Positions 114 to 21,300 of a DNA stretch of 33,434 nt are shown one piece after another. A program made the translations under genes and the position numbers. The notes below the pieces were generated by a model. The model saw only the letters and a list, made by a program, of their open reading frames with translations. It made no database searches and was not told the DNA's origin. Where the stretch lies: IMG/VR virus record IMGVR_UViG_3300030450_002941, positions 1 to 33,434 of that record. The stretch is one strand, 5' to 3'. Source of the stretch: a virus. The number at the start of each line of letters is the position of its first letter. Within the stretch, counting starts at the first letter, position 1.

Positions 114-3100
114 CTATCTTCTTTTAGTTGTTCTTCTTTTACTACGTGTTCTTTTCTTTGGCACTCTTTTATAACCTGAATTCTTTTGATTACTTTTTTG
201 ATTCTTTTTTACTTCTTCTTTTATTTTTAATACATCACTATCGGTAACGCCCAAATCCCAAGTATTCCACCCGAGTATTAAAGCAATCCTTTGCCAAGCG
301 GCATTATCTTCGTCCATAGATTGCTTAATATTATTTATTTTATTTATAACCCTACTCATTGGTATATTCGTTACGCCTTCAACAACACTACCGATAGACT
401 GCCATCTTGGATTGCTAATATCATACATTGACATTTCTGCAATTATTTTTTTATTAAACTTTTCAGTTTGTGTTGCTGAATATATTTTTCTAGCTTTAGA
501 ACCTATAGGTGGAGATATATTTAACATTTGTAACAATGTGTACGTTTGATCTTCGTTATAACCTTTAGTTCTTTGTTTTTGATATTCCATTATAGCATTT
601 TTAACTGTAGCTACAACCGCTCCAGATACACCTAAACCTCTTAATATAGAATCCGCCATACCATTAGCTACTCTAACTGTTCTTTTATTTTTCTTTTTAT
701 CATCCTCATCTTCATCGTCAAAAGCTAAAGCAAATAATGCTGATTGTAAAGCGTTAAACACAAAGTTTTGAACAGCGCCATAGTATACAATTCTTGATAT
801 ATTAGTTTTTAAATCACCCCTACCTTTTGCTATATCAATAACAGACTTTTTCATACGCCTAGAATATTGCATGGTAACATTTTGAAAAGCTAAAACTACT
901 CTACCCAATATACTAGCTTGTTCTTTTGATATTAAAGATGGATCCGCTGATTGCTGAACAGGTTCAGAAGAATCTACCATATCTTCAAAAGCTTTAGCTT
1001 CTGCTTGTTGTTGTGATAAACCTTGTTTTTTATATGTATTTATTCTGTTTCTATAAAACGTAGCACCACCTGCTGCAATAGCGAAACTATCTGCAATTTG
1101 CGTAGGTAAAAAACCAATTTTTAATAAATAAGCTATCATAGCTTTTGGTTTATTTTTCTTTCCCGCAACTGCGTTGGCTAAAGCAGCTTCGTTAACATCT
1201 AATTTTAAACCACCTCTTCTTTGTCTTAAGAAATCAGAATTAAATATCATTGTAAAATCTTTTATAAATCTAGGGAAGTTAGCTAATGCCATAGCCGCTT
1301 TTATAGGATTGTTATCTCCCCAGTTTATAAAGTTTGCTGTAGATAAAGTTTGTAGTAACGCTGATCTTGTATTAAAAAACATAATAGCACCAATGGAATT
1401 ACTAACCCAATTTAACCATTTATTAACTTGTCCATTTTGTCCTGTTGGTCTGTTGTTACCGTTTTCCATACGATATAACATATCTTTTAGTGCTTCAACA
1501 AATTCAGGTCCGTAAACAGCTTCTAACTTATTTAAATTTTCTTTACTAAAAACAATATCTTTATTATTTAAAAATTCTTGTAAATGTACTTTTCTAGCAA
1601 CTTTTTCAGTAACGTGATCTAAATCAGATAATATTGTTTCTGCAGCCCAATTTTCTCCAGGTTTAGTATAACCTTCAGGTTGTAAAGAAATAACACCTAG
1701 TTGATCAGCGAAATCTCTTAATTGATTATCTTCTAATACAGCTTTAATTAGTTTTTGTTTTTCTTGTGGACTAATATCTGGTGTTTCAAATCCAGATTTT
1801 TCCCATAAATAAACTCTTACAGCGGCATCGTGCGTAAAGTTTGTTCCAGGAACCACTGATCTTAATTTTGACCTTACACCTTCCTTAGATTTTAATAACG
1901 TTTTATAATTATCAGCTATATTTTGTTTAATATTATTAATTCTTTGAACACCTTTTCTATATGGTTTATATAAATTATCTTCAAAAAACTTAATTTGTTG
2001 TTCACCAAGTTTACCTTTAGCATTAGCTATAACATACATAAGACCCATAAAATCATTAGAACCAGCTGTGTTAAAAAATCTATCACCTAAATTTTTAGTT
2101 CTTTGAGCACCTTGTAATCTAGCTTGTGCTCCAGAAATTTTAGTTGTAGCATCTATACCTTCGTTGAGTTCTATTATTTTATTAAGATCATCACTTAAAC
2201 TTAATTTAGTTTGTTCTTTAGCTAATTGAACTTTAGATTTAACATCAAATTGATCTAATACATTTTGAACCGCTTGAACATTTTGTAAGGCATCGTCAGC
2301 AAAATATATATCATTATAACCTTCAGAAACTTTTTCTGTTATCCACAAAGCTTTAGCTTCCGATGTTGAATTAGCTAGTCCAGTTATATTTTGTAAAGGT
2401 ATATTTAAACCAAGTCCTTTTAAAAACTCATGTATTGCTAATTGAGATTCTGGTGGACGAGCTGTTAATATAAATTGATTTTTAGTTCCAAACTTTTTTG
2501 CTCTTTCTAAAGCTTTTTTAAAGAAAGGACCTTCTCTACCTTGAACAACTTTATTAAATTCAGAAAAATCAAACACATAACCCTTAGCAGCTAACTCAAC
2601 ATAATCTCTAGCATATTGCTCAGCGTTTAATTTACCTTTTTTACCATCTGGAGTTGTATATAATATCTTAGAGTTTGTTCTAGCTAACGTGTCATCGAAA
2701 TCCCATATACTTATACCTTTTTTATCAGTAATAGAAAGACTTACTTTTTCAGCTTTTAAAGCTATATTGTGATTGTTAACATCTTCTTGTGTTATTGATA
2801 ATGAGGCAACACCTTCTCTAGCTATAACTTTTGTCATTGGATCACCACTTATATCAATAGCATTTTTCATTTTTCCTTTAGGTAAAAATTTAATTCTATA
2901 TCTACCCTCTGTAGTTACCTTACCACCAACTTTATCCATTATATCAGTAATATAATTTGGAGCCCAAAGTGTTTCGTGATCAGAGAATATAGCTTCAGCT
3001 TGGGCTATTGTTTTTATATCACTAGTTATTATAGTATTCATCAACTCAGCCATAGTTAAAGCATTAGGTCCCATGTGCTCATTTTTATAGTTTAAATCGT

Positions 3101-6100
3101 GGATAGTAGCTAATTCTAACGCTATTATATGATCTTGATCTGTTAAATATTTTGGATTACCATTTTTATCAACAGCGTTTCTTTTATATTTAGGATCTTT
3201 TTTGTTAGCATTATATCTTTCCTTATACTCTATACAATCTTTCCAACTATCTCTATACTCTTGTTTAGCTTCGTTTCTAACTCGTAACAAAGCATTTTCT
3301 TCACTTATATTTTCATTATTAACTAAATCTTTTACAGCTTTTGTATTTTTAGTAATAGCTCTAGGAGACATCATACCTACAATTTTACCTTTTCCTTCAG
3401 CGAGATATAAACCTTTAATAGTACTAAATGCTCTAAAACCTTCTATAATATTTGTTTGTAGTTGACCCATTACATAAAGATACTTACTGTCTATAACTTT
3501 AGCTTTATGCAACACATTTAGTTTAAGCGCTAAGTATTTTAATAAAGCCATATTAGCTTTATTAATGTTTAACATATCGTTGTACGCGGCACCAAGTTTT
3601 TGCTTTCTTTCTTGCACGCTAATATCAGCTGCTAAAATACCATTCCAAACAACATCTTTAAACCAAGACTTTGTTTTAACTTGTTTACGTAAACTATCTT
3701 TGTGAACTATAAACTCGTTATAAGCTTTTCTAGTTTCTTCTGTAGAATATTTAGCTCCTTCTATCTCTTGGTATTTGTTTTTAGCTACTTTTTGTTTCTT
3801 CTGATCAGCGGTTAACGGTTGCACTCCTCTTCCTTGATCTTTATAACCCATCCAATCAAATCCAGCTGCTTCAAATATTACGCCAGGTATATATTCTTGT
3901 ACTTTGTTTATGCTTTCTTCGTAATTTTTTTGTAAATCTGTGTTTGGTCCTGTTTTTTCTGAAGACCATTGTAATTGTTTTTCAGCTATTGGTTTTGATA
4001 ATTCTTTCGGAATACCCAATCTTTCCATTTCTTTAATAAATCCTTTTGCACCATCAACAGCTTCTGGATTTTCGTATACTAATCTATCTACAATTTTAAC
4101 GAGTTGAGGATGGTATTCTTTTGCATAATTTAACTCTTTAGATTTTTCATAAGCTTCTATACCTTTTTCGTTAGCTATGTTTGCTAGTTCTTCTATAATA
4201 TTAATACTTTTTTCTACACTTAAAGATAAGCTAACTTGATCTTGCTTTGCTAATTCACCTCTTTGTTTATCAAACTCTTGTAATATGTTTTCCAAACTAG
4301 CTTTAAATACAGCGTCTGGATTATTAGAGTTTTCTATAGTAAGATCATTAGCAACTTTTGTTATAAGTCCTTTGGTTAAAACTTGAGCTAAACTTCTTTT
4401 TCTTTCAATTAATCTACCAGCTGGACCAACAGTAAAATAAGCACCAAATTGAGCTCTAGGTATTGGTTTTATTATAAATATATCATTACCTTGTGGTGTT
4501 GCGTCTCTTTTACCTGTGTTTATTATTTTAAAAAGCTTACCATATCTCTTTTTTATTTCAGATGTTGGTATAGATTTTTGTATAAAATCAAAATGAGTAT
4601 CATGGAAAACTTTATATTGTTCACTAACTCCAGTAACTTTAGATACTTTACCCATCATATCCATTACTTTTTTGTTGATACCACCTTTTATAAGTTGTTT
4701 TATAACATTGTTTACATTAGCTGGATTTAATTCTATAACTTGAAGTATATCTTCTTTTAAATCTTGTATAAACTGTTCTTTACTTTCAATAGTTATGTCA
4801 GCTAGTTTTTCTAATTCTCTTTGTCTTTCTACTTTTGGTAAAGGTTTGTCTTTCTTATCGACAGTCATATCAGCTGTTTGTGTAGCTATTTTTTTAGAAA
4901 CTTTTTTACTTATAGTTTCTTCAGCTGTAGATTTTACAAAAGCTTCTGGTAAAAAGTATTTAAATACTTCTTTTGCTCTTTCTTTTAAAAATTGATTAAG
5001 ATAAGCGGCAACGTTTTCATACTTGTGTTTTTCTTTTCTAAAGTCTTGAACTAATCCTAAAGCAGTTCTATGTTTAGATTCAGCTTTTTGTGTAGGGATT
5101 TTATCATATAAAAGCATCGACACTATATCTTCTCTTTTGCTTTCTAAAATATTTTTTTGGTCTTCAGTTAGGTCTGCTGTCTCTATATATCTATTAAGTA
5201 TAGAGTTAGCTTGACCTTCGTACATCATAGCTATTTCAAATCCAGCTGTTGATTTATCTTCCGATGCATCAGCTTTATATGCTTCATTTACTTTATCAAC
5301 TAAATCAGATAAAGATTCTTCAGCTGTATCTTGAGGTGTAAACACTTTATTTTGCTCTGTAATAGATAACGCTGATCCTTCCATATCTATTTTACCAGCA
5401 AAATCAGATACACCAGCAACTAGATTACCTTTTCTAGCATTTTTACTATATTCTTTAATAAAGTTAAAAGCTTGTTTACCGTCATTAAATTTTATTTTCT
5501 TGAAACCCATAGCTCGTAGCATAGGTGTTATTAAATCAATTATCTTATCAAAAAGAGTTTCATTGTATTTAATTTCTCCTTTTACTATAGCATCTGAAAA
5601 AGCTGTAAACCATTCATCAGTTGTTTCAAGATCAATTTTATCTCCTAATTTTTTCTTATAAAAGTTCATTCTATCTTCAATAGCTTTATAAGCTTTTGAA
5701 TCAAGATTATTTTTTAATGTGTCTTTAAAACTAGTTACTAATTCTTTTCTCGCGCTAGGATCAAGACCTTTTAAATGTTTATTTAAAACAGCATGTAGTA
5801 CTTCGTGCGAACCAACACTAATAGCACCTGTTAACGCGGCTCTTTCTTTGTTTATTAAAACAACACTTTTACCATCATTACCTTTAACTATTAGTCCATC
5901 AGACATTAGTATCTGATCATCAGTTTTATCTTCTTGAGAAGCGTTTAATGCACCAACTACTTCTTTATATTTTTCAAGAAAAGATTTAGCAGTTTCTCCA
6001 GCATCAACATATTCCATACCTAATGCTCCAGCTGCTTTTTCAGCAAATTCAATTGTGCCTTTTAATCTTTTTTTACCAACAGCTAGAGCAACTCTTTTAG

Positions 6101-7550
6101 CAGCGCTATCTTCCTCTTGTAAAAGTAATTCTGTAGATTTAGCACCTTCATATTTATTAACAATACTTTCTATTTCGTTTTCAATACTTTCTAAAGTTTC
6201 TTTTGCTTTTGGAACTTTTTGACTACCTTCTTTTTTAACATCAACTTGGGCTTTTGTTCTTTGTATTTCAAGGTCAATTAACTTTTCTCTATCATTTTGA
6301 TCTGTTACTCTATGATCAATTTGAGAATCAATTATAGCTTTATTTTGTCTTTCGTAAACCTCAGCAGCAAAAACATCATCATTTTCAATAGTAATATCAG
6401 CCATAGCTATAGTTATATCATCCATAGCTTCTATTTCTTTTTTAAACTTTTCTTCGCCAAGAGTTTCTGTACCTATTTTATATTTACGTTTTTCAAATAT
6501 TTTAGGTAATGATGTTGCTACCGCTCCTGGAGTTTGAGCAAACGCCTCCATTATTATTTCCGATGCATCGTATTCTTGATCAGCTGCTCTTTGTCCAAAA
6601 AATTCACCAACACCACCAAACGCTCCTTCAGTACCTATACCTGTTCCTGCCGCTATCACTCCTCTAGTTCCAGCTCTTAAACTTGTTTTTGCTAATGCTT
6701 TAACTGTTTTTGTTGTAACCGCACCAGCTAAACCACCAGATAACATATCTATAGCGCCTATAGTTAAACCTCTTCTTAGTGCTCTATTTTTTACTTTTTG
6801 GTAATTATCTCCTTCTTCTAACCATTGTTTAATAGATTCTTTATTCCACTCTTTACCATCTTTTTCCATTTCTTCTTTTAACAACTCAGCAAAGGTTAAA
6901 CCATGCTCCATAGCAGTTGATAAACCACCTAAAGAACCAGCTATAGCACCGGTACCAGCACCTATTAAATTACCAATACCAGGAGCTATAGAACCTAAAG
7001 TACCAAAAGTTAAAGCTCCAATTCCAGCCCCAGCACCAACATAACCTAAAGCATCTCCAGTTTTACCTTCTAAAACATCTGCACCAGAATCTACCAAAGC
7101 ACCAGCCATCATAGACATTGATTGTGTTGCTATTTGTGACGCTAATATAGGATCTTCAAAAACTAAAGCTCTTAATGCAGCAAAAAATCCACCACCATCT
7201 TCTTCTACTTTCTTTTGAAATCTTTTCATTCTCTCTCCTTGTGGTAAATTATTTAATTTATCACCAGCAACAATCATAGCTTCAATATCATCAAGAGATG
7301 TACTGCCTTTAAATACTTCTAGATTTTCTTCATTAGTTCTACCAGTTTCCCAACCCGTAGTTATAGCATCAATATACTCACCACCTATTTTCCATATAGA
7401 ACCTAATGGATCATCAAGTTCAAAAGAAGGACTTGTGTAGGTCTCTTCTTCTTCTTTTTTAATAGCATTAGGAAATTTTTCTAAAAACTCTTCTAACCTA
7501 CTTTGACCTACAGAATATTCTTGACCATCAACTATATAAATTTCATTCAT
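114..7550 (-). CDS. giant polyvalent internal virion (ejection) protein with zincin and HAD domains
   Basis: A 2478-residue protein, last of three probable ejection proteins. The N-terminus (IYIVDGQEYSV, then FLEKFPNA) resembles a start I associate with large marine-phage virion proteins. Residues about 130-350 are Gly/Ala-rich and hydrophobic, as in membrane-active ejection proteins. HEVLH at 582-586 with a candidate third ligand E646 marks a zincin-like metallopeptidase. Residues about 1612-1780 form a HAD phosphohydrolase: DFDDT at 1617-1621, T1696 in ILTAR, K1733, and D1752/D1753. SLS-type peptides occur at 727-731, 1107-1111, 1583-1587, 1604-1608 and 1783-1787. The region after about 1790 resembles the long helical 'large polyvalent protein-associated' domains, and the last 20 residues are mostly Lys/Arg. 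Its neighbour upstream ends 6 bases before the ATG. Virion location and delivery into the host are inferred from gene position and family. The stop is TAG, unlike the TAA I see at the other stops I checked. Confidence 0.85.
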   Translation of the reverse strand: MNEIYIVDGQEYSVGQSRLEEFLEKFPNAIKKEEEETYTSPSFELDDPLGSIWKIGGEYIDAITTGWETGRTNEENLEVFKGSTSLDDIEAMIVAGDKLNNLPQGERMKRFQKKVEEDGGGFFAALRALVFEDPILASQIATQSMSMMAGALVDSGADVLEGKTGDALGYVGAGAGIGALTFGTLGSIAPGIGNLIGAGTGAIAGSLGGLSTAMEHGLTFAELLKEEMEKDGKEWNKESIKQWLEEGDNYQKVKNRALRRGLTIGAIDMLSGGLAGAVTTKTVKALAKTSLRAGTRGVIAAGTGIGTEGAFGGVGEFFGQRAADQEYDASEIIMEAFAQTPGAVATSLPKIFEKRKYKIGTETLGEEKFKKEIEAMDDITIAMADITIENDDVFAAEVYERQNKAIIDSQIDHRVTDQNDREKLIDLEIQRTKAQVDVKKEGSQKVPKAKETLESIENEIESIVNKYEGAKSTELLLQEEDSAAKRVALAVGKKRLKGTIEFAEKAAGALGMEYVDAGETAKSFLEKYKEVVGALNASQEDKTDDQILMSDGLIVKGNDGKSVVLINKERAALTGAISVGSHEVLHAVLNKHLKGLDPSARKELVTSFKDTLKNNLDSKAYKAIEDRMNFYKKKLGDKIDLETTDEWFTAFSDAIVKGEIKYNETLFDKIIDLITPMLRAMGFKKIKFNDGKQAFNFIKEYSKNARKGNLVAGVSDFAGKIDMEGSALSITEQNKVFTPQDTAEESLSDLVDKVNEAYKADASEDKSTAGFEIAMMYEGQANSILNRYIETADLTEDQKNILESKREDIVSMLLYDKIPTQKAESKHRTALGLVQDFRKEKHKYENVAAYLNQFLKERAKEVFKYFLPEAFVKSTAEETISKKVSKKIATQTADMTVDKKDKPLPKVERQRELEKLADITIESKEQFIQDLKEDILQVIELNPANVNNVIKQLIKGGINKKVMDMMGKVSKVTGVSEQYKVFHDTHFDFIQKSIPTSEIKKRYGKLFKIINTGKRDATPQGNDIFIIKPIPRAQFGAYFTVGPAGRLIERKRSLAQVLTKGLITKVANDLTIENSNNPDAVFKASLENILQEFDKQRGELAKQDQVSLSLSVEKSINIIEELANIANEKGIEAYEKSKELNYAKEYHPQLVKIVDRLVYENPEAVDGAKGFIKEMERLGIPKELSKPIAEKQLQWSSEKTGPNTDLQKNYEESINKVQEYIPGVIFEAAGFDWMGYKDQGRGVQPLTADQKKQKVAKNKYQEIEGAKYSTEETRKAYNEFIVHKDSLRKQVKTKSWFKDVVWNGILAADISVQERKQKLGAAYNDMLNINKANMALLKYLALKLNVLHKAKVIDSKYLYVMGQLQTNIIEGFRAFSTIKGLYLAEGKGKIVGMMSPRAITKNTKAVKDLVNNENISEENALLRVRNEAKQEYRDSWKDCIEYKERYNANKKDPKYKRNAVDKNGNPKYLTDQDHIIALELATIHDLNYKNEHMGPNALTMAELMNTIITSDIKTIAQAEAIFSDHETLWAPNYITDIMDKVGGKVTTEGRYRIKFLPKGKMKNAIDISGDPMTKVIAREGVASLSITQEDVNNHNIALKAEKVSLSITDKKGISIWDFDDTLARTNSKILYTTPDGKKGKLNAEQYARDYVELAAKGYVFDFSEFNKVVQGREGPFFKKALERAKKFGTKNQFILTARPPESQLAIHEFLKGLGLNIPLQNITGLANSTSEAKALWITEKVSEGYNDIYFADDALQNVQAVQNVLDQFDVKSKVQLAKEQTKLSLSDDLNKIIELNEGIDATTKISGAQARLQGAQRTKNLGDRFFNTAGSNDFMGLMYVIANAKGKLGEQQIKFFEDNLYKPYRKGVQRINNIKQNIADNYKTLLKSKEGVRSKLRSVVPGTNFTHDAAVRVYLWEKSGFETPDISPQEKQKLIKAVLEDNQLRDFADQLGVISLQPEGYTKPGENWAAETILSDLDHVTEKVARKVHLQEFLNNKDIVFSKENLNKLEAVYGPEFVEALKDMLYRMENGNNRPTGQNGQVNKWLNWVSNSIGAIMFFNTRSALLQTLSTANFINWGDNNPIKAAMALANFPRFIKDFTMIFNSDFLRQRRGGLKLDVNEAALANAVAGKKNKPKAMIAYLLKIGFLPTQIADSFAIAAGGATFYRNRINTYKKQGLSQQQAEAKAFEDMVDSSEPVQQSADPSLISKEQASILGRVVLAFQNVTMQYSRRMKKSVIDIAKGRGDLKTNISRIVYYGAVQNFVFNALQSALFALAFDDEDEDDKKKNKRTVRVANGMADSILRGLGVSGAVVATVKNAIMEYQKQRTKGYNEDQTYTLLQMLNISPPIGSKARKIYSATQTEKFNKKIIAEMSMYDISNPRWQSIGSVVEGVTNIPMSRVINKINNIKQSMDEDNAAWQRIALILGWNTWDLGVTDSDVLKIKEEVKKNQKSNQKNSGYKRVPKKRTRSKRRTTKRR
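2200..2718 (-). other. HAD-like phosphatase domain inside the polyvalent protein
   Basis: Residues about 1612-1784 hold all four HAD motifs in order. Motif I is D1617-x-D1619-x-T1621 after a hydrophobic strand (ISIW). Motif II is T1696 after a strand (FIL). The motif III lysine is probably K1733, and motif IV is D1752-D1753 after IYFA. SLSIT precedes the domain and LSLSD follows it directly. The substrate cannot be told; nucleotide or nucleic-acid phosphatases of this superfamily are known from phages. Confidence 0.8.
5613..5807 (-). other. zincin-like metallopeptidase site (HEVLH + Glu)
   Basis: Residues 582-586 read HEVLH within ISVGSHEVLHAVL, a helix context typical of the HExxH zinc motif. 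E646, in DEWFTAF about 60 residues on, is a plausible gluzincin third ligand. This is a motif call; the fold is not shown directly. Confidence 0.6.
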
Positions 7551-7556
7551 ATTTTA

Positions 7557-9248
7557 TTATTCTTCAAAATCAGTATTAATTTTACTATCTTTTTTTAACT
7601 TTATATTATTATCTTTCAAGAAGTTATTCCACATTATAGAATTAACTTTGGCTTCGTCTTCATGTTTTGATCTTGATTTTATTACTAAATTTTTCTTTGA
7701 GTCTTTTTTATTAACTATATTTACTTGAGATGTTAAATTATGAGCTGGCGTTGCGGTCACAACCCACTCATCACCAAAATCAAAGTTCTTATTTGCCCAT
7801 GTTGCAAATTCAGTTTTACTTTGTCCTTCTCCACTTGTCCAAAAATCAGAATATGTAAACGTTCGAGGTGCTTTTGGAGTACTTTCTTCTTTAATTTGTT
7901 TTCTAGTTTTATACGTATTTTCATTATCACCTGTTACGATTAAACCTTCCTCTTGAAGTACTTGAAACTGTGTATAAGCGTCATTATTCGGGTCTTTTAA
8001 CCACTCTTCTGTATTCTCTTTCCAAGACATGTCATTTGCGCCGTCTGTATAGAAAAATTTATTATGTTCATCACTCCAATGGTAATACCCTTGGTGATCC
8101 CAAGCATAAAAACTTTGTTTGTTATCAACATTATATCTTGCTGTTTCTAATTCCTTTGGTCTTCTCCAGTTACCCCGTACGTGTCTTGAGTTAGCGTAAA
8201 TGTCTGATGCGTCTTCATCAACTTCTGCATATGGACCTAACTTATGTTTTCTATCATACCTATCATTTTTATCCTTCCAATATTTTTCGTGAGAATTTTT
8301 TACAGCATTAGTAAGTTGTTCAGCATAAATACTTCTGGAAGCTTCTAAATTATACAATGGATTATCTGTATTTATAATAGCGTCAATAAAAGCGGCTTTT
8401 TCACCTGGATCTAACACGGCATCTTTGTTTCCAATTGTTTTCATGAAATCTTCACCAGCTATAGCTGCTAAAATTTCGTTATCTAAACTTTTAGAACCTC
8501 CTAACATATCTCCTAAACTCTTTCCTAAAACACCATCAGCCATTGCTGCTCCAAATTCTTCTGGATTTGTTGGCATGCTTCGCATAAATGCTGCGTGAAC
8601 ATCTTCGTATTGAAAAGTTTCAATATCCATCCATTGACTTTTAATTTCTGAATATGCTACATCTACTGTAAAGTTTTTAGGTTGAAAAAGATTTTCATAT
8701 TCAGCTTCTGTAACTTCTATATTTTCACCAGTTTCTAACTTTATATTAAACACTACTTCGCCCTCTTTATTTTCACCTAATGTATAATCTTTGTTTATTA
8801 TTTTCCCAACAATATCCCGATCTCCAGTACTCATGTTATTAGAAAATTCTCCATTTTTATATGCTTCTGAATAATCTAAATTCCATTGGCTGTGGTTTTT
8901 TACAAATGTACTCCAGTTTTGCATTTGCATCATAGCGTCCATTTTCATTTTCTCTCCTTCAGTACCACCTGTTCTAACGCCCTGCCAATACATATTTTTC
9001 CAACCGTTTACTTTATCTGTTGTATAATTATAAAATTCATCACCCAAAGCACCAGCTGTCATAATAGCATCACTAGTAGCTGCTTCTAAAGTAGCTTCTA
9101 CAGCTTTTTTTATAGCTAAACCTTTTTCAAAAATTTCTTCCCCTTTTTTAATTACAGGGTCTAAACCTTCTAAACTTATAGGTTTTAAGCTTTCAGCGAC
9201 TTTACCCGCACCTCGTATTAAAGATTGATCTGCTGTATATTTTGCCAT
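7557..9248 (-). CDS. internal virion / ejection protein (middle of three)
   Basis: A 563-residue protein that I do not recognise by motif. It is acidic to neutral and rich in Lys, Glu, Asn and aromatic residues (Trp, Tyr). The first 70 residues are Ala/Glu/Lys-rich and look helical, and there is no signal peptide or membrane segment. Residues about 340-400 are rich in His, Tyr and Trp (for example AWDHQGYYHWSDEHNKFFY). It lies between the 279- and 2478-residue proteins with gaps of 9 and 6 bases, so the three are very likely co-translated. The small-medium-giant order recalls T7 gp14-gp15-gp16, where the middle protein joins the ejection channel; that role is inferred from position and size only. 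The start at 9248 is preceded by an A/T leader without a Shine-Dalgarno sequence. Confidence 0.65.
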   Translation of the reverse strand: MAKYTADQSLIRGAGKVAESLKPISLEGLDPVIKKGEEIFEKGLAIKKAVEATLEAATSDAIMTAGALGDEFYNYTTDKVNGWKNMYWQGVRTGGTEGEKMKMDAMMQMQNWSTFVKNHSQWNLDYSEAYKNGEFSNNMSTGDRDIVGKIINKDYTLGENKEGEVVFNIKLETGENIEVTEAEYENLFQPKNFTVDVAYSEIKSQWMDIETFQYEDVHAAFMRSMPTNPEEFGAAMADGVLGKSLGDMLGGSKSLDNEILAAIAGEDFMKTIGNKDAVLDPGEKAAFIDAIINTDNPLYNLEASRSIYAEQLTNAVKNSHEKYWKDKNDRYDRKHKLGPYAEVDEDASDIYANSRHVRGNWRRPKELETARYNVDNKQSFYAWDHQGYYHWSDEHNKFFYTDGANDMSWKENTEEWLKDPNNDAYTQFQVLQEEGLIVTGDNENTYKTRKQIKEESTPKAPRTFTYSDFWTSGEGQSKTEFATWANKNFDFGDEWVVTATPAHNLTSQVNIVNKKDSKKNLVIKSRSKHEDEAKVNSIMWNNFLKDNNIKLKKDSKINTDFEE

Positions 9249-12382: not shown

Positions 12383-15300
12383 TTAATACGTAGAACTCGT
12401 AGTAATAGTATTACCACTATTTCCTGGAATAAAACTTGAACTTATTCCTTCTATAATACATATATTAGATATTTGAACCCACGCTTGTTCATATGTTTCG
12501 AACTCTAAAATTAACGTTTCTATATTCAACCTATCACTACCAGTAGGATCGTTTGCTGTAGGACCTATAGCTGTAAAATTGTACGTCCACACATAATCTG
12601 TAGAATTATAAGGATTAAAATACCAAGAAGGAAAATCTATCATTACTGGACACCCACCACCTAAGTTATAATATGCCCAATCTCTTTGTACATAATCTAA
12701 CATACCATTATAAACACCGTTTGTAATGTGTCTGTGAGGAATTTGGTTTCCACTTCCACTCGTATGTGTAGATGCATAAAGAGAACTATTAGTAGAACAA
12801 GCAGAATCGGCGTTATGTCCAGTATTTATCCATAACTTAGATTGATTAGGACCCGTACCATAACCATAAGTTCCAAAATCTGAAGCAGGACCACCACCTG
12901 TCCAATTTCCACATTCAAAAGTAATTTGTAGTTGATAATTATGTCCAGCTTGTAATTTGTAATTAGTATCACCAGTAATATGATCAAAAGTAACTAATGG
13001 TTTGGCTATTAAGACAGATTGTCTATATCCATTTGGTCTACTAGCTGCAATATCAGTTGCTAGCCAAGGATGAGTACTACCGTCAACACCAACTCCACCT
13101 ATTCTAGGACCATGAAGAGTAATACCTCCAATGTTATATGGATAATTAGTATGTCCATAATCAACCTGCCAAGGTAGTTCAATGTATGGATAATCTCTAC
13201 AAGGACCACTACACCAAGTTGAGTGGGTAGGATCAGGTGCGGGTTGCCAAGCGCCAGCATATGGCTTGTCCACACATTTTGTATACGTTTGGTAATCACA
13301 ACATAGGTGCATATTATTATAACAATCCTGCTCTGCGCCATTCACGTGATGATTAGCTACAGAATAGTTTAACCAACGTTCGTCAAACACGTCAAAATAG
13401 ACATAGCCAGGCCCTGATCTTGATGAAGCAGCTAATCCCATAGGCCAAGAAGCCTCAGGCCAATTATTAGTAGGATTATTTAACTCAACAGTACTAGACG
13501 TTGGATTAGATGAGCTTCCTGTCGTTCCAAAAGCATAAAATTCCCTCAATCGTGTACCTATTGGAGAATTCATAGGATTCATACTACTACTTGATGGATC
13601 ATCACCGATCCAACCACGTTTAGGAGTAACATCCACAGTTGGAACTTCACCTTGACCGATTCCCATATCGTGATATTCTCCAACTATAACACTACAATCA
13701 TAATCACACGTAGGAACACAATCCATAACATCATTAAAGTAATCAACATTAAGCACTGCACCTGGTGGTATATTTGAAACGGCTACAGCTTGACAAACAC
13801 TCATTGCTCCATTACACATCCAAACAGGTGGAGGTGGTCCACAAGCATCTATGCAGTCATTATAATTGTTATAAGTTGTAAAACTAGCGGTATTAGTACC
13901 TTGACAAGCTGGAACACTATTACATTCATAATATGGAAAACTTCCAACCAAACAAGCTGCTAGACATAAGTGAAGAGCAGCATATGTTCCAGTACCGTCA
14001 CCAGGATTTACACATGTACCATTATTACAATTATATGTTATAGGGAATATACAAGAACCATCATCTATAGTACATGTTGGACAGTAGTTAACTGCTGATG
14101 GATCTGTACAACCATAAACATTAGCACAATTAGCATCGCAATCAGTAGGATTTGTCCACGCACCAAGACCATTTCCAGGATCATAACATTCACCAGGTAA
14201 TACTGCTAATGGAGCACCAGTTGACCAATCATCGCAATTATGTGTTGACGTAGGTGGACAACAGTCATATGAAGGTATCACAGCTGGACAACTAGCAGTA
14301 CAAGCCGCTTCTGTTAATGCTGGATCAAAACTATAATTTTGACCTTCAAAAGGTAAACTATTACCATTTACACCATAACAAGTTCCTACGTTAGCAACTG
14401 TACTAGTTATAACATCATTACAACCATTAGGATCTTCACAACAACCATATGAAAAATGTGAACCTGGAGGACCACAAATGCTGTCACAAGTAGATTGTGA
14501 GCTATAATAAGGACCATTAGGACCAGTTCCAAAACTACCATCATTAAAACAATCGTCAATCGCTACAAGCGTCGCAGCATTAGGATTACTCCAGTCTACA
14601 CATCCACCCAAACCAGCGTCATAACCAGGTTTATTAGCATCGCAACAAGACCAATGAGGTGTTCCAGGATTACACCCTGGCGTATGGGGTCCAAATAAAC
14701 CGTGACAACACACTTGTGAACCACCGTGTTCGCAAATTTCCCAACCCCATTGTCTATTAGCATCAGGCGGATTCCATGAAGCTGTATCACCAGAATAGTA
14801 TATAGTACCATCAACATATGTTGGTATAAGTGTACCAGAAACATAAGCTGTGGGATTCCATTCAAACCATTTTATAGTCCAATATGTACTTCCGAGAACA
14901 TTACCAGCACATCCAGCACCAAGATCAATAGTTACATTTATTATACCATTATCACATATTGGAGGATTAGTTGCTGGGAATTGATTTGTAGTAAAAGTAT
15001 GTGGTGGACATGTGTCAGCCATAGATATACATGGTTGTGGAACTATACAATCTATTGTAAAAAGAGTATCTGTAAAACAACCAAAATTATCAGTTACTCT
15101 AACATAGTAATCTCCATCTATAAAACCTGGAGGCCAAGCTAATACAGACGCTTGGAACGCTACAAATGATTGACTTGTTGTGTTACCAGAATAAGTATTA
15201 GTATCTGTAGTTATAAGTGTACCAGTGGCATCATACCATTCAACTGTCCATGTAGAAGCACCATTTAGTAATATAACATCTATATAAGCATCACCATCTC

Positions 15301-18300
15301 TATTACAAGTTCCTGTGTTTGATGGATCTGTTGCGTCGGTTTTAAATACAGTAATATCATGAGGTGTACCAGTACACGGTGCTATTGGAGCACAACTAGG
15401 AGAGTTTGCTATACACGTTGCTTCATCAGGATGTGGACCTGTTGTAGAACCTAATAATTCTACACATTGAAAACCAGTACTTGTTACCGCGTTTTGAGGA
15501 TTAGAACAGTTAGTGTAAGGACAAGGACATTGAAATAATTGTCCACCTAAATCTGAAAAAAATCTCATATCACCAATAACACCATTAGGCGACGGTGAAG
15601 GTGAAATTTTATCCGTAGCATCCATAAATTGATTAAAATTCATACCAGGATATACGGGATACCATGTAGAATAAAAATTTATCAATTCTAATACTGTATA
15701 AAATCTTGGAGGAAGTGGATTGCCAGAAATTACTATAGACGCTGGTGTATTATATCCTTGTCCTTGCAGATAAGTATCCCCCATATAAACACAATCAATA
15801 CAACCACCGCTACTACCAGAATCTGTACCGCATGTTTGCATTACGTAATCTTCAAATCTAAAAGTTTGTCTAGAAGGTACATCAAAAAACCATCTTATGT
15901 ACTCTTGCAACCAAGCGTCGCCCCAAGCTCCTGATCCATATTGTGGTGAATCACAATCTACTTGATATATACCATGTCTATTATGTCCATCTGGAGAAGA
16001 TCCACTTTGTACTATAACATTCCTACCTGTATTAGGGTTTACACAAGCATATGTAACAGGTTGACATTCCCAACTAGTTCCAGTTAAACCACATGGAGAA
16101 TTTACGTCAGTCAAACAAGTTGGTTCATCTGGATAAGGACCTGTATTTAAACCTGGTACTTCAACACAACTAGGCATAGATGAACCAGCTGTTTGATTAT
16201 GATGTACTACAAGATTAAGATCACTACCAACACTATTAATAAGATCTTTTACTCCAATAGGTGTTATAGGTGTTCCGCTAGCATCAAATTCTTGCTCCCA
16301 AACTAAATCACCAGAATTAAGTTTTGCAATTGTTAATTGACCACCAAATGTACCATATTGATTTTGTAATTGTGAAACAAAGAAAAATACAGTAGTAAAT
16401 AATAATGGATTATTAACACCAACATTATCAGTAATATAATGACCATATGGATAAGCTGCTGGATTTGGCGAGCTTGAAGTAGAAATAATATCAAGCATTG
16501 ATGTTGGATAACTACTTTGGTAAAGTATATAATCTGGATGTGTACTTGCTAAAACACCATCTATAGTTGTTGAGGTATCGTTTGCCCATTCTCCACCAAA
16601 AAGCGACATGTAGTGACCATTTGTATTATCTACACCATTAACATAATGTGGATTTGGATTAAATGTAGCATCTACAGGACCCATTTCTATCCAAATTGTA
16701 GAATATTGACCTGCAGCATTAGGAGGATAATTGGCGTTAAATGTAGGGTCTTGCCAATTCATAAACCAGTAATTAACAAAGCTTGGATTTACTCCAGGAA
16801 TATGTATGTATTCATTACCCGTAACACCTGGTCTTGAATAAACAGGAACGTTTTGTTGACAATCCCAAGATGTATAACCACCAGTTGGTGTTGTTATAGC
16901 GCCAGATTGACCTATACCTTGGAATGAGAACTCTCTACCATCTAAATTACCAGCTGTACCATCATCGGTCCATTCTGTATATTGACCTTTAACTTGAGAA
17001 AACCATTTACCTTCTTTTTCTTTAAATTCTTGTATATCTCCTTCTTGTAAATCACTATTTATTCTATCAACATACCAACCATATTTAGTATAATTATCCC
17101 AGTATTCTCCAGAATCAGTTAAATTTTCTGTTATTCTAGCTTGACTACCTTCATAATTAAGTGTTTGAAAACTTTTTACACTACCAGGTTGCTCGTTAAG
17201 CATAACCGTAACACTAGATTCACCTTGAGCATTATGGAAATTATTTCTTACAAGATTAGTATGGTGTTCCCATAAATCACCATTTTTAATTGTATAATAA
17301 CTATTATTTAAACTTATAGCATTTTCTGCTGTCCAAGATTTAAAACTAACCCAACCTCTATTTATTTCAGAGAAAGACACTGTAGTGTCAGTACCACTTT
17401 CTGTGTATGTAGAAATAGTTTCGCTAGGACTATAAAACACTAGTCTTGTACTCCAGTATCCTAGTTCTGGACAGCTAGTGCAAGGACTAGAAATATCTAC
17501 AACACCAGCAACACCACCTAAACCAGCAACATCAATTATAGTACTAGCTATATCTAATTCTAGTTCTAACATATCTATATAATTATAAGTAACATTTTGT
17601 ATACTTAATACTTCAGCTCCATCATAAACACCTACACCTTTTACTAAACTACCAACTTGAACATTTGTACCAAGATCAACCGTTATTCTATTTGTAGGTT
17701 GCCATTGACTTGGTCCTGAAGCTGTAGAACATGGTGCTGTTTTACAATTAGCTAATACCCATGCGTAAGCTTGTGATTGATGTATTGGAGGAAGTGTAAT
17801 AGGAAAATCAGTGTGATTTAAAGATATATTATATTCTTTTTTTCTATCATCAAAACTACCATAAATTCTATTAGACAATGGTAAGTTATCAGAGAACCAA
17901 TCGTGCATACCAGCATCAGATATTGGTGTTAAACCGTCTCTAGATAATCTTAAAACAGCTCCTCTAGTTTTATCTGTAAAGTAAGATCTAAAGTTTTCTG
18001 TAGCAAATGATTCTGGGTTTTTAGATATACCATACTCACCGGCATAAGGTTGAGCTTCACCTAAAACTCTATTTGTAGATATTAATTGTGGATTACCATC
18101 AGCATTATACAAAGCGTCTTTATTTGCTAATATTTTTAAAACTCTATCTTCACAAAAAGTTGTTAATGTAAAGTTTCTTTGATGTAATTTTTGTATACTA
18201 CCATAAGTCGGATTTAAATCTTTTGTAATTTTTTCTGCTTGTATAAATTGATTTAAATTATTTATACCAGCTACAGAATTATATATACCAGAATATATTA

Positions 18301-21300
18301 AACCACTACTTCTTCTTTCTTCTAAATATGGTTCTTCTAATACTGTAGATGCTTTTGCTCCACTATCTATTGTGACTTGATTAAAATCATCTCGTATTCT
18401 ATCGGATTCAACACCATTACCAAAAGAATAACAATTATGCCAAGGTAGTGTAACTTCGTAATTATGTAACTCCGCATCTAATATATATCCATTAGCTCTT
18501 GCCATATCATAACCAACAATAGTAGTTTCAGTTTTACTACCATTGGCTCTTGTAAATACTAATCTACTATTTACCGGTGGGAAATCAGGACCACTACTTC
18601 CATCGTGATTCAAACCAGCGCCATTAACATCTGATAAAAGTACCATATTATCAACAGCTCTAGAAACTCTTATGTCATCGTTATTTGGTATTGGAACTGC
18701 TGGAAATCCAGGATGTGTATCAAGTGTTACTGTACTACCAGTGACAGGATCATAACATGTTACATAACTATTTTCTCTTAGCTCAACATGTATGGGTCCT
18801 AAAAATTGTTCATTAGTATTATTATCTAACCTTATAGGATATGTTTGCCCAACTTCGTAATATATATCTAAATCAACCTCTTCTTTAGGTTCTGTTTCCC
18901 ATATAGCCGGATTAGTACTCATTGGGTTTTCATCATCATAACTAAAATAAGGTGATAACACCTCCCACGTTACAGAACCCGGGGCTGGTGATTGTACTGA
19001 ACTAGAGTCAACACGTTTAAGATTTGGTATTGTTGTATGATTAGAAAGACTATTCCAAGTATAACCCCAATTACCACCAGGGTAATCATAAGTAGAATGC
19101 ATACCGTCATTACGTATACCAGGCGCTGGCGTGCTTGGTAAATTTGTACCTGTTAAAACGTTTCCGCTAGCATCAAAGTGAGCGTCTAACGTGCTATCGT
19201 TTGTTGGCGAATAGTAATGAGGTCCAACTTCACCTATACCATAATAGTTTCCAGCATTATCTACCTCTATACTTTCAGCATAAAACGTATATCTTCTTCG
19301 CTTTGCGTTAGGCCAATTCCACTCCCATATATTACAAGGGTATCTATGGTGAGCAGTTGTAGTGTAACCCATGGTACTAGTACTATTACCGCAGTTACTA
19401 GCCCCAGCTGAATTACTCCAACCACCAGAACTATCTCTATCATCACCACCACCACCTCCATGCCATTGTAAGCCTTGGTTTGGATCACCTATACCACTAG
19501 GTGTACATGCTCCAGCTCTTGTTTGAGAAACCCAATTCTGATGAGTTATAGTAGATGTTCCATGGGTATGATCATGATGATTAACACCATAATCTGCAAA
19601 ATTAGCATAATTATAAAGAAAAACTCCCTTTTCACTAGGATTAAACATATGATCTTGTTGATTAAAGGACCATTCTGCTGCTGATAAATTATTCATAAGT
19701 AAATTAACAGGAAAAGCTGGAGTTTTTGTTCTGTAAACAACTAGTCCTGGATCTTCTCTCCATCTCCATATTGAACCAGGAGTTGTAATAGAATTTATAA
19801 ATTCCATATCTGCAACATGATCTAAAGCCCAAGATGCGTTTGGCATATTATAATTTGACTGTACTTGAGATAAACTAGTTAAATCACTTCCATTAGGATA
19901 TTGATTTCCACTATCACCATAACCAGCCTTAGATAAAGTTATAACATTGTAATTAGCAGTTGGAACTGATGAGCCAAAAATCATAGCTTGACCAACGTTT
20001 GCATCATCAACACCGTGTATACCACTAGCTGGAGGTATTCTACCAAAATCAGAAGCTGGCATGTTTTGTAATAAACCAAAATTATCCATTGGTACAACAG
20101 GATGATTTGGTCCTATAGAAAGACCATCATTATCCCAAAAAGGTCCTCTCATATCTGTTATACCTAAATAACCTTGCGCTGTACCACCACCGTTGTATTC
20201 ACCAGTACCACAAAGCTGCATACCCATATGATAACCATCTCCACCCACCATTTTTAATTGCTCTTCATGAGAAGTATAACCACCACTATTCCAAGCTGAT
20301 CCAAGAGCAAACTTAAGAAAACACTCGTTATTACCTGTCGGGTCTATAGCGTTTGTTCTTGGCGTGGGGTGTTGAGATTTAAAGTCGTGTAAACCCCAAA
20401 AATCAGAGTGAAAAAATGGTCTAAATCCTTCTATTTTATCTATAAACCAACCATTAGAAGTAGTTGTAGTTGATTGACCAGAAACATGATCCCAATACGT
20501 TGCACCATGTCCCGGGCCACCAGCACAGAAAGGCCATCCAGCATTACCATTATCTTCATGAATAGATATTTTTTGCTCTCCGCTAGAACCCGCTCCAAAA
20601 CCTGGATCACAACCAAACCAATTACCACCACCATTTCCAATTGGATTCATGGTGATTGGTATACTAGTACTTATATATTGTGATTTGCAAGAATGTACGA
20701 CGTTATAATCTGTAGAAGTACCAAAACCTCCAATTACAAACTCTTGTATAAATAAATCATTTTTTATTTTTGCAAAAAATCTACCTTGAAATTCTGGTTT
20801 ATTTAATACTTGTTGTTTACTTAATAAAATAGTTAATGTTGGAATAGCAGTAGTGTAAGAACCATCTAAACTTGTTATACCAACGTCAGAACCAAGTTCT
20901 TTTTTAAATACTATTTTATAAGCTCCAGTACCAGTATTCATAACTACATTAGGTATCAACTCTGCACTTTTTATTTCATAAGCTTTACTAACCCCATAAG
21001 AAGATTTAAACCTTATTCTATATTCAAATAATTCTCCTTGTTCTTGATCTACTAATCTTTTATCCCAACCAGCATTATCAAATGTATCAGTATCAACATA
21101 TATAAATTCACCACCATCAAGTGGGAAACCATCTCCAGCTGCATTTCCTATTAGTTTTGGTACTGTTCCAGCGGCTGGAGGTGTAACAGTATTACCTGTA
21201 TCAGTGATACTAGGTTGTGGTTTTTCAAAAGTTTTTATAAATTGTGGCGCTTCATTTTCTATAGCTATAACCTTATATCTAGCTGGTCCTGAAACAAATT

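Follow-up and report, generated by a model that had tools for sequence, protein, structure and literature searches.

Polyvalent proteins, as described by Iyer et al. 2017 (PMC5512222), are giant mosaic phage proteins in which several catalytic domains are combined with a zincin and which are thought to be injected with the DNA; autoprocessing was proposed there for them, and zincin-mediated processing was put forward in general terms. We describe here a 2478-residue protein of this kind, encoded in a viral stretch of 33,434 nucleotides (IMG/VR record IMGVR_UViG_3300030450_002941, positions 1 to 33,434; the whole stretch is called the window), together with the short peptides, SLSIT among them, that recur at its domain borders and whose counterparts in relatives are replaced in concert, lineage by lineage. 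Such proteins, the zincins within them and the notion that they are processed are already known; no member of the window's family was found in the family list of Iyer et al., and their paper describes neither a recurring border peptide nor a lineage-specific concerted change. The novelty that a first-pass annotation of the window had guessed at is accordingly divided: the zincin processing idea had been published (PMC5512222), and for the recurring, lineage-specific border peptide no description was found in the open-licence papers searched, which does not prove its absence elsewhere.

Other described systems are alike in part. In phage P1, processing of DdrB, which carries HExxH (residue 872), yields a product of about 76 kDa, and maturation includes the cutting of DarA, an internal head protein; unlike in the window, MFSET occurs once in DdrB and is absent from DarA and DarB, and the P1 dar proteins were rejected as carriers of the border peptide for lack of recurrence. 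In phiCrAss001, the large cargo proteins gp45-gp50 (PMC10172136) are encoded downstream of the muzzle gene and ejected through the tail, and the window likewise has a muzzle-like gene and a crAss-like gene order; the phiCrAss001 cargo paper makes no mention of proteolysis. The prohead-protease processing of ejected proteins in giant phages (SPN3US gp245; PMC10052503) uses a short recurrent cleavage motif and one phage peptidase that cuts many head and ejection proteins; the motif is a different one, and the copies of the window's peptide stand within a single protein, at its domain joints. A gene for a prohead protease was not recognised in the window. An operational likeness exists to the polyproteins of RNA viruses, with domains in one chain and repeated short sites evolving in concert with one reader, but the proteins are unrelated, and cleavage of the window's giant is a prediction.

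The five SLS-type peptides listed by the first-pass annotation are all present in the protein at the places given for them (peptides 1 to 5, Table 1), spanning 2190-5372; a further SLS peptide, SLSD, had been overlooked. An acidic or polar residue, said to follow them usually, follows four of the five. The pattern [ASK]LS[IL][TSD] occurs 5 times against 0.07 expected from residue shuffles and 0.19 from a first-order Markov model, with 0 of 2000 reaching 5, and these expectations are optimistic since the pattern was picked after the data had been seen. Chance repetition of a common hydrophobic-serine pattern, singled out by eye, would profit from exactly this choice after reading and from the ease with which short patterns are found; it is refuted by the shuffle counts, by the site-by-site counterparts and by the family-wide breakpoint and concert tests with their controls (below), and is hardly credible.

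Relatives of the whole protein were found at seven loci (L002-L008). For the C-terminal module and for the HAD module, more than 450 candidate stretches each were available, of which the best 80 per module were analysed; dereplication gave 104 giants (the window and 103 others), with HAD present in all by selection. The giants are mosaics, zincin, HAD and other modules being common to different relatives separately: by phmmer, and counting the window, the zincin is found in 63 of the 104, the module at 760-1110 in 19 and the N-terminal module in 26; the C-terminal module is found in 101, and residues 1110-1450 are matched in none of the other 103. The ends of local homology between giants served as an independent map of the borders. 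Around peptide 1, at 707-745, homology to the zincin stops; 13 homology segments have their ends on peptide 2 (1109-1114); and around peptides 3 and 4, at 1565-1611 (1601-1611 in most relatives), homology to the HAD module begins. Breakpoint density at the five sites is 2.4, 2.9, 7.1, 12.8 and 1.8 times the mean (p=0.007 against five random positions; p=0.0002 without the C-terminal peak), so that the peptides are indeed not scattered at random, with the caveat that breakpoints from many relatives are mutually non-independent. Across the family, FS[KR] sites have a breakpoint density of 3.9 times the mean (null 1.00, standard deviation 0.19, maximum 1.83 in 2000 shifts), which decays with distance; the control FS[^KRE] gives 1.08 and other control tripeptides 0.3-1.3. 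The reversed and other tripeptides FT[KR], FN[KR], LS[KR] and SF[KR] were rejected as border markers, having no association with breakpoints.

Two AlphaFold models, 1121 and 881 residues long (mean predicted local distance difference test, pLDDT, 57.8 and 69.9), show peptide 1 as coil (pLDDT about 28-45); pLDDT is below 50 at peptide 2 and, in both models, at peptide 3. Peptide 4 forms part of a loop (about 61), and peptide 5 is at the junction of a loop (model residues 220-224, below 50) and a helix; low pLDDT may also stem from a thin alignment between modules. Peptides thus lie mostly in low-confidence linkers or at linker edges and none in a confident strand, so that the location inside folded strands, named by the first-pass annotation as evidence against its reading, was not found. 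Two of them bracket the HAD module, as had been described, peptide 4 just before motif I and peptide 5 after the last strand. The coincidence of the peptides with the starts and stops of shared domains in mosaic relatives supports the view that they mark domain junctions.

The letters SLS are not themselves conserved. SLS was rejected as a conserved motif, being absent from relatives except the near-identical L002, and [SA]LSIT, with 3 copies in the window protein, has 0 in the other 103 dereplicated relatives, which serves as a measure of recurrence independent of the shuffles. Of the expectation that SLS peptides would be conserved at borders in aligned homologues, the position held and the letters did not, being replaced lineage by lineage. 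In the close relatives L003-L007, no SLS peptides are present; instead R-x-S-x-(S/N/D)-L-(G) recurs at four corresponding borders, namely after the zincin, in the middle, before HAD and after HAD, although in L004 the strict pattern matches at three of them and the fourth has KNSESLG; the middle copy lies in a poorly aligned stretch and its correspondence is approximate. In more than 100 marine relatives, the commonest form at the same joints is [VIL]-x-F-S-[KRE]; most other relatives have QQAK(V/I)(K/Q/N)FS(K/R/E) after HAD and FSR, FSK or FSE before it. For the site-by-site comparison, L072, L073, L057 and L068 served as alignment partners: SLSLS 1107 lies over (K/T)(I/L)QFS(K/I/Q), SLSIT 1583 over LQ(Y/F)S(K/R)T, SLSIT 1604 over IQFSKTP (L057) and KLSLSD 1782 over the post-HAD IQFS(K/R). 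Private signatures are KFSET (L030, L035), MFSR(D/E) four times (L116), FSKS (L148), RNS(E/N)SL (L003, L006) and SLSIT (window). From these alignments, SLSIT is the local form of a family motif, approximately [VIL]-x-[F/Y/L]-S-[K/R/E/I/L]-[T/S/D]. Enrichment of FS[KRE] is seen in the giants and is absent from the other open reading frames of the same contigs; an FS[KRE]-like peptide stands before HAD in 60 of 100 proteins (17 expected) and after HAD in 77 of 100 (13 expected). Raw FSE counts, which the HAD-internal DFSEFN inflates, were rejected as evidence of heterogeneity. The cassettes inserted in L030 and L148 carry the peptide at, or close to, either end. The syntenic giants of cultured phi38:1, phi19:3 and Panino, which are without zincin, have no such recurring peptide and likewise no C-terminal module; the syntenic giants of cultured phages were rejected as family members, being different proteins. 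No match to the C-terminal module was found in the phage record collection, and no cultured phage with the same module is present there.

Border peptides are replaced in concert in each lineage, and this at the level of peptide, not of DNA. The post-HAD 11-mer is more similar to its own protein than to others (excess 3.67, z=8.4; 75 residues before HAD excluded), whereas control 11-mers from -160 to +250 have |z| of at most 2.0, core-overlapping ones aside, and shuffled cores give 1.6, -0.4 and -0.1. The effect persists when the set is thinned to 31 lineages of less than 75% HAD identity (z=4.2, p=0.0002) or to 14 of less than 65% (z=2.3, p=0.012); with 5 lineages only, the signal is lost. The window's own post-HAD seed ranks 61 of 96, weak because KLSLSD differs from SLSIT, and recurrence in the window protein is based on direct counts, not on this test. 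At matching residues of the repeated peptides, 11 of 32 codons are alike in the window, where codon usage predicts 12.9, and for the family as a whole the count is 1348 of 2272, with 1304.5 predicted; the two SLSIT copies of the window differ in all five codons, and a degenerate DNA pattern shows no excess at window level. As codon likeness is no greater than codon usage predicts, DNA copying is excluded as the main cause; as the joint peptides are alike within a genome and the codons are not, what selection acts on is the peptide, with the copies changing in concert within each lineage.

Two alternatives bear directly on these tests. A recombination scar or hotspot, with linker DNA copied between junctions as homology for domain shuffling, would suit so strongly mosaic a family and the duplicated QQAK(V/I)KFSE at both ends of the L030 insert; repeated-peptide codons as different as chance allows, the window's SLSIT copies included, largely refute it, and we consider it very improbable. 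The peptide could also be a structural linker, a hydrophobic-x-F-S-charged stretch that caps or insulates domain ends or acts as a hinge in stepwise unfolding at ejection, its forms reflecting local composition and drift. That the models place it in linkers or where helices begin would agree with this; composition and drift, however, would not make copies converge (KFSET, MFSRD, RNSESL, SLSIT) while the flanking linker does not, and shuffled cores lose the signal, so that this explanation is improbable, if less so than the scar.

Since copies change together at the peptide level, the data suggest a single partner in each phage that reads all joints. In the explanation proposed here, the SLS peptides would be this lineage's version of a domain-border signal in the giant mosaic cargo proteins of marine crAss-like podoviruses, placed in unstructured linkers between exchangeable domains; one recogniser per phage would bind all copies, which must therefore change together. 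For a short unstructured peptide at domain borders, the most natural reader is a peptidase; the apparently intact zincin site of most complete giants (below) and the processing proposed by Iyer et al. speak for one. The recogniser would most likely be a peptidase that cuts the giant into single domains, either in the maturing capsid or once the protein has been ejected; the embedded HExxH zincin would be the nearest candidate, and another phage or host peptidase may take its place. Proteolytic processing at the border peptides is our best explanation from the sequences, with about an even chance of being right. Somewhat less probable is the fuller form of this idea, a phage polyprotein code in which a string of effector domains, a phage-specific cleavage peptide and one peptidase would be combined, all sites switching specificity together in each lineage.

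Several points weigh against processing by the zincin or against processing as such. The border peptide is weakly defined, with little recurrence in some relatives. Peptide distance is not correlated with zincin distance (Mantel r=-0.04, p=0.69), in a test of low power because most relatives share an FSK-like site. HExxH is replaced by HDxxH in L097, L113 and L121 and by QExxH in L090, surrounding residues being partly kept; border-type peptides are retained in L090 and L113 despite these degenerate sites, a comparison of low power, and within limited flanks no separate zincin gene was found at the degenerate-site loci. One protein with a metallopeptidase domain, N4 vRNAP, enters the virion without being cut (PMC5512222). 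The zincin was thus rejected as a demonstrated reader, being without covariation support and with zincin-poor relatives keeping border-type peptides.

A docking or packaging tag that is never cut would account for nearly all of the same facts. Here the motif on each domain would bind a virion protein (portal, ring or inner cargo) and order packing and threading through the tail, changing in concert because its one receptor changes; junction placement, concerted change and confinement to the giant are explained as well as by a peptidase, and an active zincin is not needed. Its receptor would be a hypothetical one, a chain with at least 4 to 6 tags seems to exceed the need of packaging, and between internal domains their use is less obvious than that of a single end tag; we regard such a tag as unlikely, though deserving more weight than the structural linker. 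Under the processing explanation, polyvalent-protein cutting, proposed so far on general grounds, would gain from the recurring peptide a concrete list of sites, predicted for over 100 proteins of phages. The border peptide also offers a route to domain borders in proteins without recognisable domains, and SLSIT, RNSESL, KFSET, MFSRD and QFSKT are natural specificity variants for probing the reader.

Table 1 Modules and SLS peptides of the giant protein in the window. Positions are those of the window.
Feature	Residues	Position	Strand	Basis
Gene of polyvalent (mosaic, multidomain) protein	2478 in total	114..7550	(-)	open reading frame; relatives L002-L008 and >100 more
N-terminal module	1-485	6096..7550	(-)	PHROG phrog_32588 at residues 94-486, E=1.4e-31
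Zincin-like metallopeptidase module	540-708	5427..5933	(-)	active-site residues, phmmer, confident fold in model
Zincin HEVLH	582-586	5793-5807	(-)	third ligand Glu 646 at 5613-5615
Border peptide 1, ALSIT, after zincin	727-731	5358..5372	(-)	direct pattern count
Further SLS peptide, SLSD (ESLSD)	746-749	5304..5315	(-)	aligns with post-zincin QFSRT of L072
Module, no assigned function	740-1105	4236..5333	(-)	phmmer matches in relatives; confident helical parts in model
Border peptide 2, SLSLS	1107-1111	4218..4232	(-)	aligned letter for letter with (K/T)IQFSK of L072, L057
Region, no assigned function, nearly private to lineage	1115-1575	2826..4208	(-)	0-1 phmmer matches, other 103 relatives
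Border peptide 3, SLSIT	1583-1587	2790..2804	(-)	aligned with LQYSKT of L057
Border peptide 4, SLSIT, directly before HAD motif I	1604-1608	2727..2741	(-)	aligned with IQFSKTP of L057
HAD-like phosphatase module	1610-1775	2226..2723	(-)	DFDDT motif I, DD at end
Border peptide 5, KLSLSD, after last HAD strand	1782-1787	2190..2207	(-)	FS[KRE]-type peptides there in relatives
C-terminal helical module, best conserved part	1795-2437	240..2168	(-)	alignment A2, 43-96% identity

The zincin of the window giant has both HExxH and the third Glu ligand; H582, E583, H586 and E646 are invariant across 32 sequences (alignment A4), and HExxH is present in 107 of 112 complete giants, with the zincin active site apparently intact. 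The module had no match in Pfam and no relevant match in a PDB profile search; the best fold match for the zincin part of the model in the PDB fold search was another zincin, weak at E=0.085, and fold searches of the PDB with both models gave no match below E=0.001. The HAD motifs DFD.T, K and DD are invariant or nearly so among relatives and the strand/helix order of the HAD model is Rossmann-like; no significant match to this module was found in the PDB. A Gly-rich hydrophobic stretch is present in the N-terminal module (residues ~165-215).

Single relatives depart from this arrangement. The giant of L008 (7478-14716, 28% identical) is without the HAD module and retains the zincin and C-terminal modules; L046 and L056 have a kinase-like insert between HAD motif I and the remaining HAD. 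In L030, a 200-residue insert stands between the HAD and C-terminal modules (residues 2295-2511), flanked by QQAKVKFSES and QQAKIKFSET, and its end (NIPAVKNMLNQSDIKS) resembles a copy of the HAD tail. L020 was rejected as a natural split at a border: its single in-frame TGA (7793-7795), a sequencing error or real, lies inside a module and is therefore uninformative on border cleavage.

From high to low coordinates, the window encodes terminase, portal, a Lys/Glu-rich protein, capsid-type and other virion proteins, the muzzle-like protein, smaller genes and the giant. The gene of the giant is thus downstream of those for portal, capsid and muzzle-like protein, and crAss-like podoviruses of Bacteroidetes have their genes arranged in this order. 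The closest named relatives of the portal are from Flavobacterium, Cellulophaga, Maribacter and Tenacibaculum phages (26-53% identity), which encode a giant at the equivalent position; as the copies in phi38:1 and elemoA are annotated as structural protein, synteny indicates that the window's giant is probably virion cargo. GroEL and GroES genes are present in the syntenic phages MW202828 (L169), Maribacter phage Panino (L170) and elemoA (L172), where they possibly help folding of the giant cargo. The muzzle-like protein (3652 residues, 12383-23341, (-) strand) has a Cys-rich stretch at about residues 2400-3400, with 8-22 Cys per 200 residues against 0-4 elsewhere, which is unusual in a phage tail protein. 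The C-terminal tail of the giant (KKRTRSKRRTTKRR; window 114-180) is strongly basic, and in L002 to L006 the sequence of the tail varies. The giant contains the hexapeptide ADITIE in two places (residues 384-389 and 917-922; 0.2 repeated hexamers expected), which may be due to chance or to a second recurring element.

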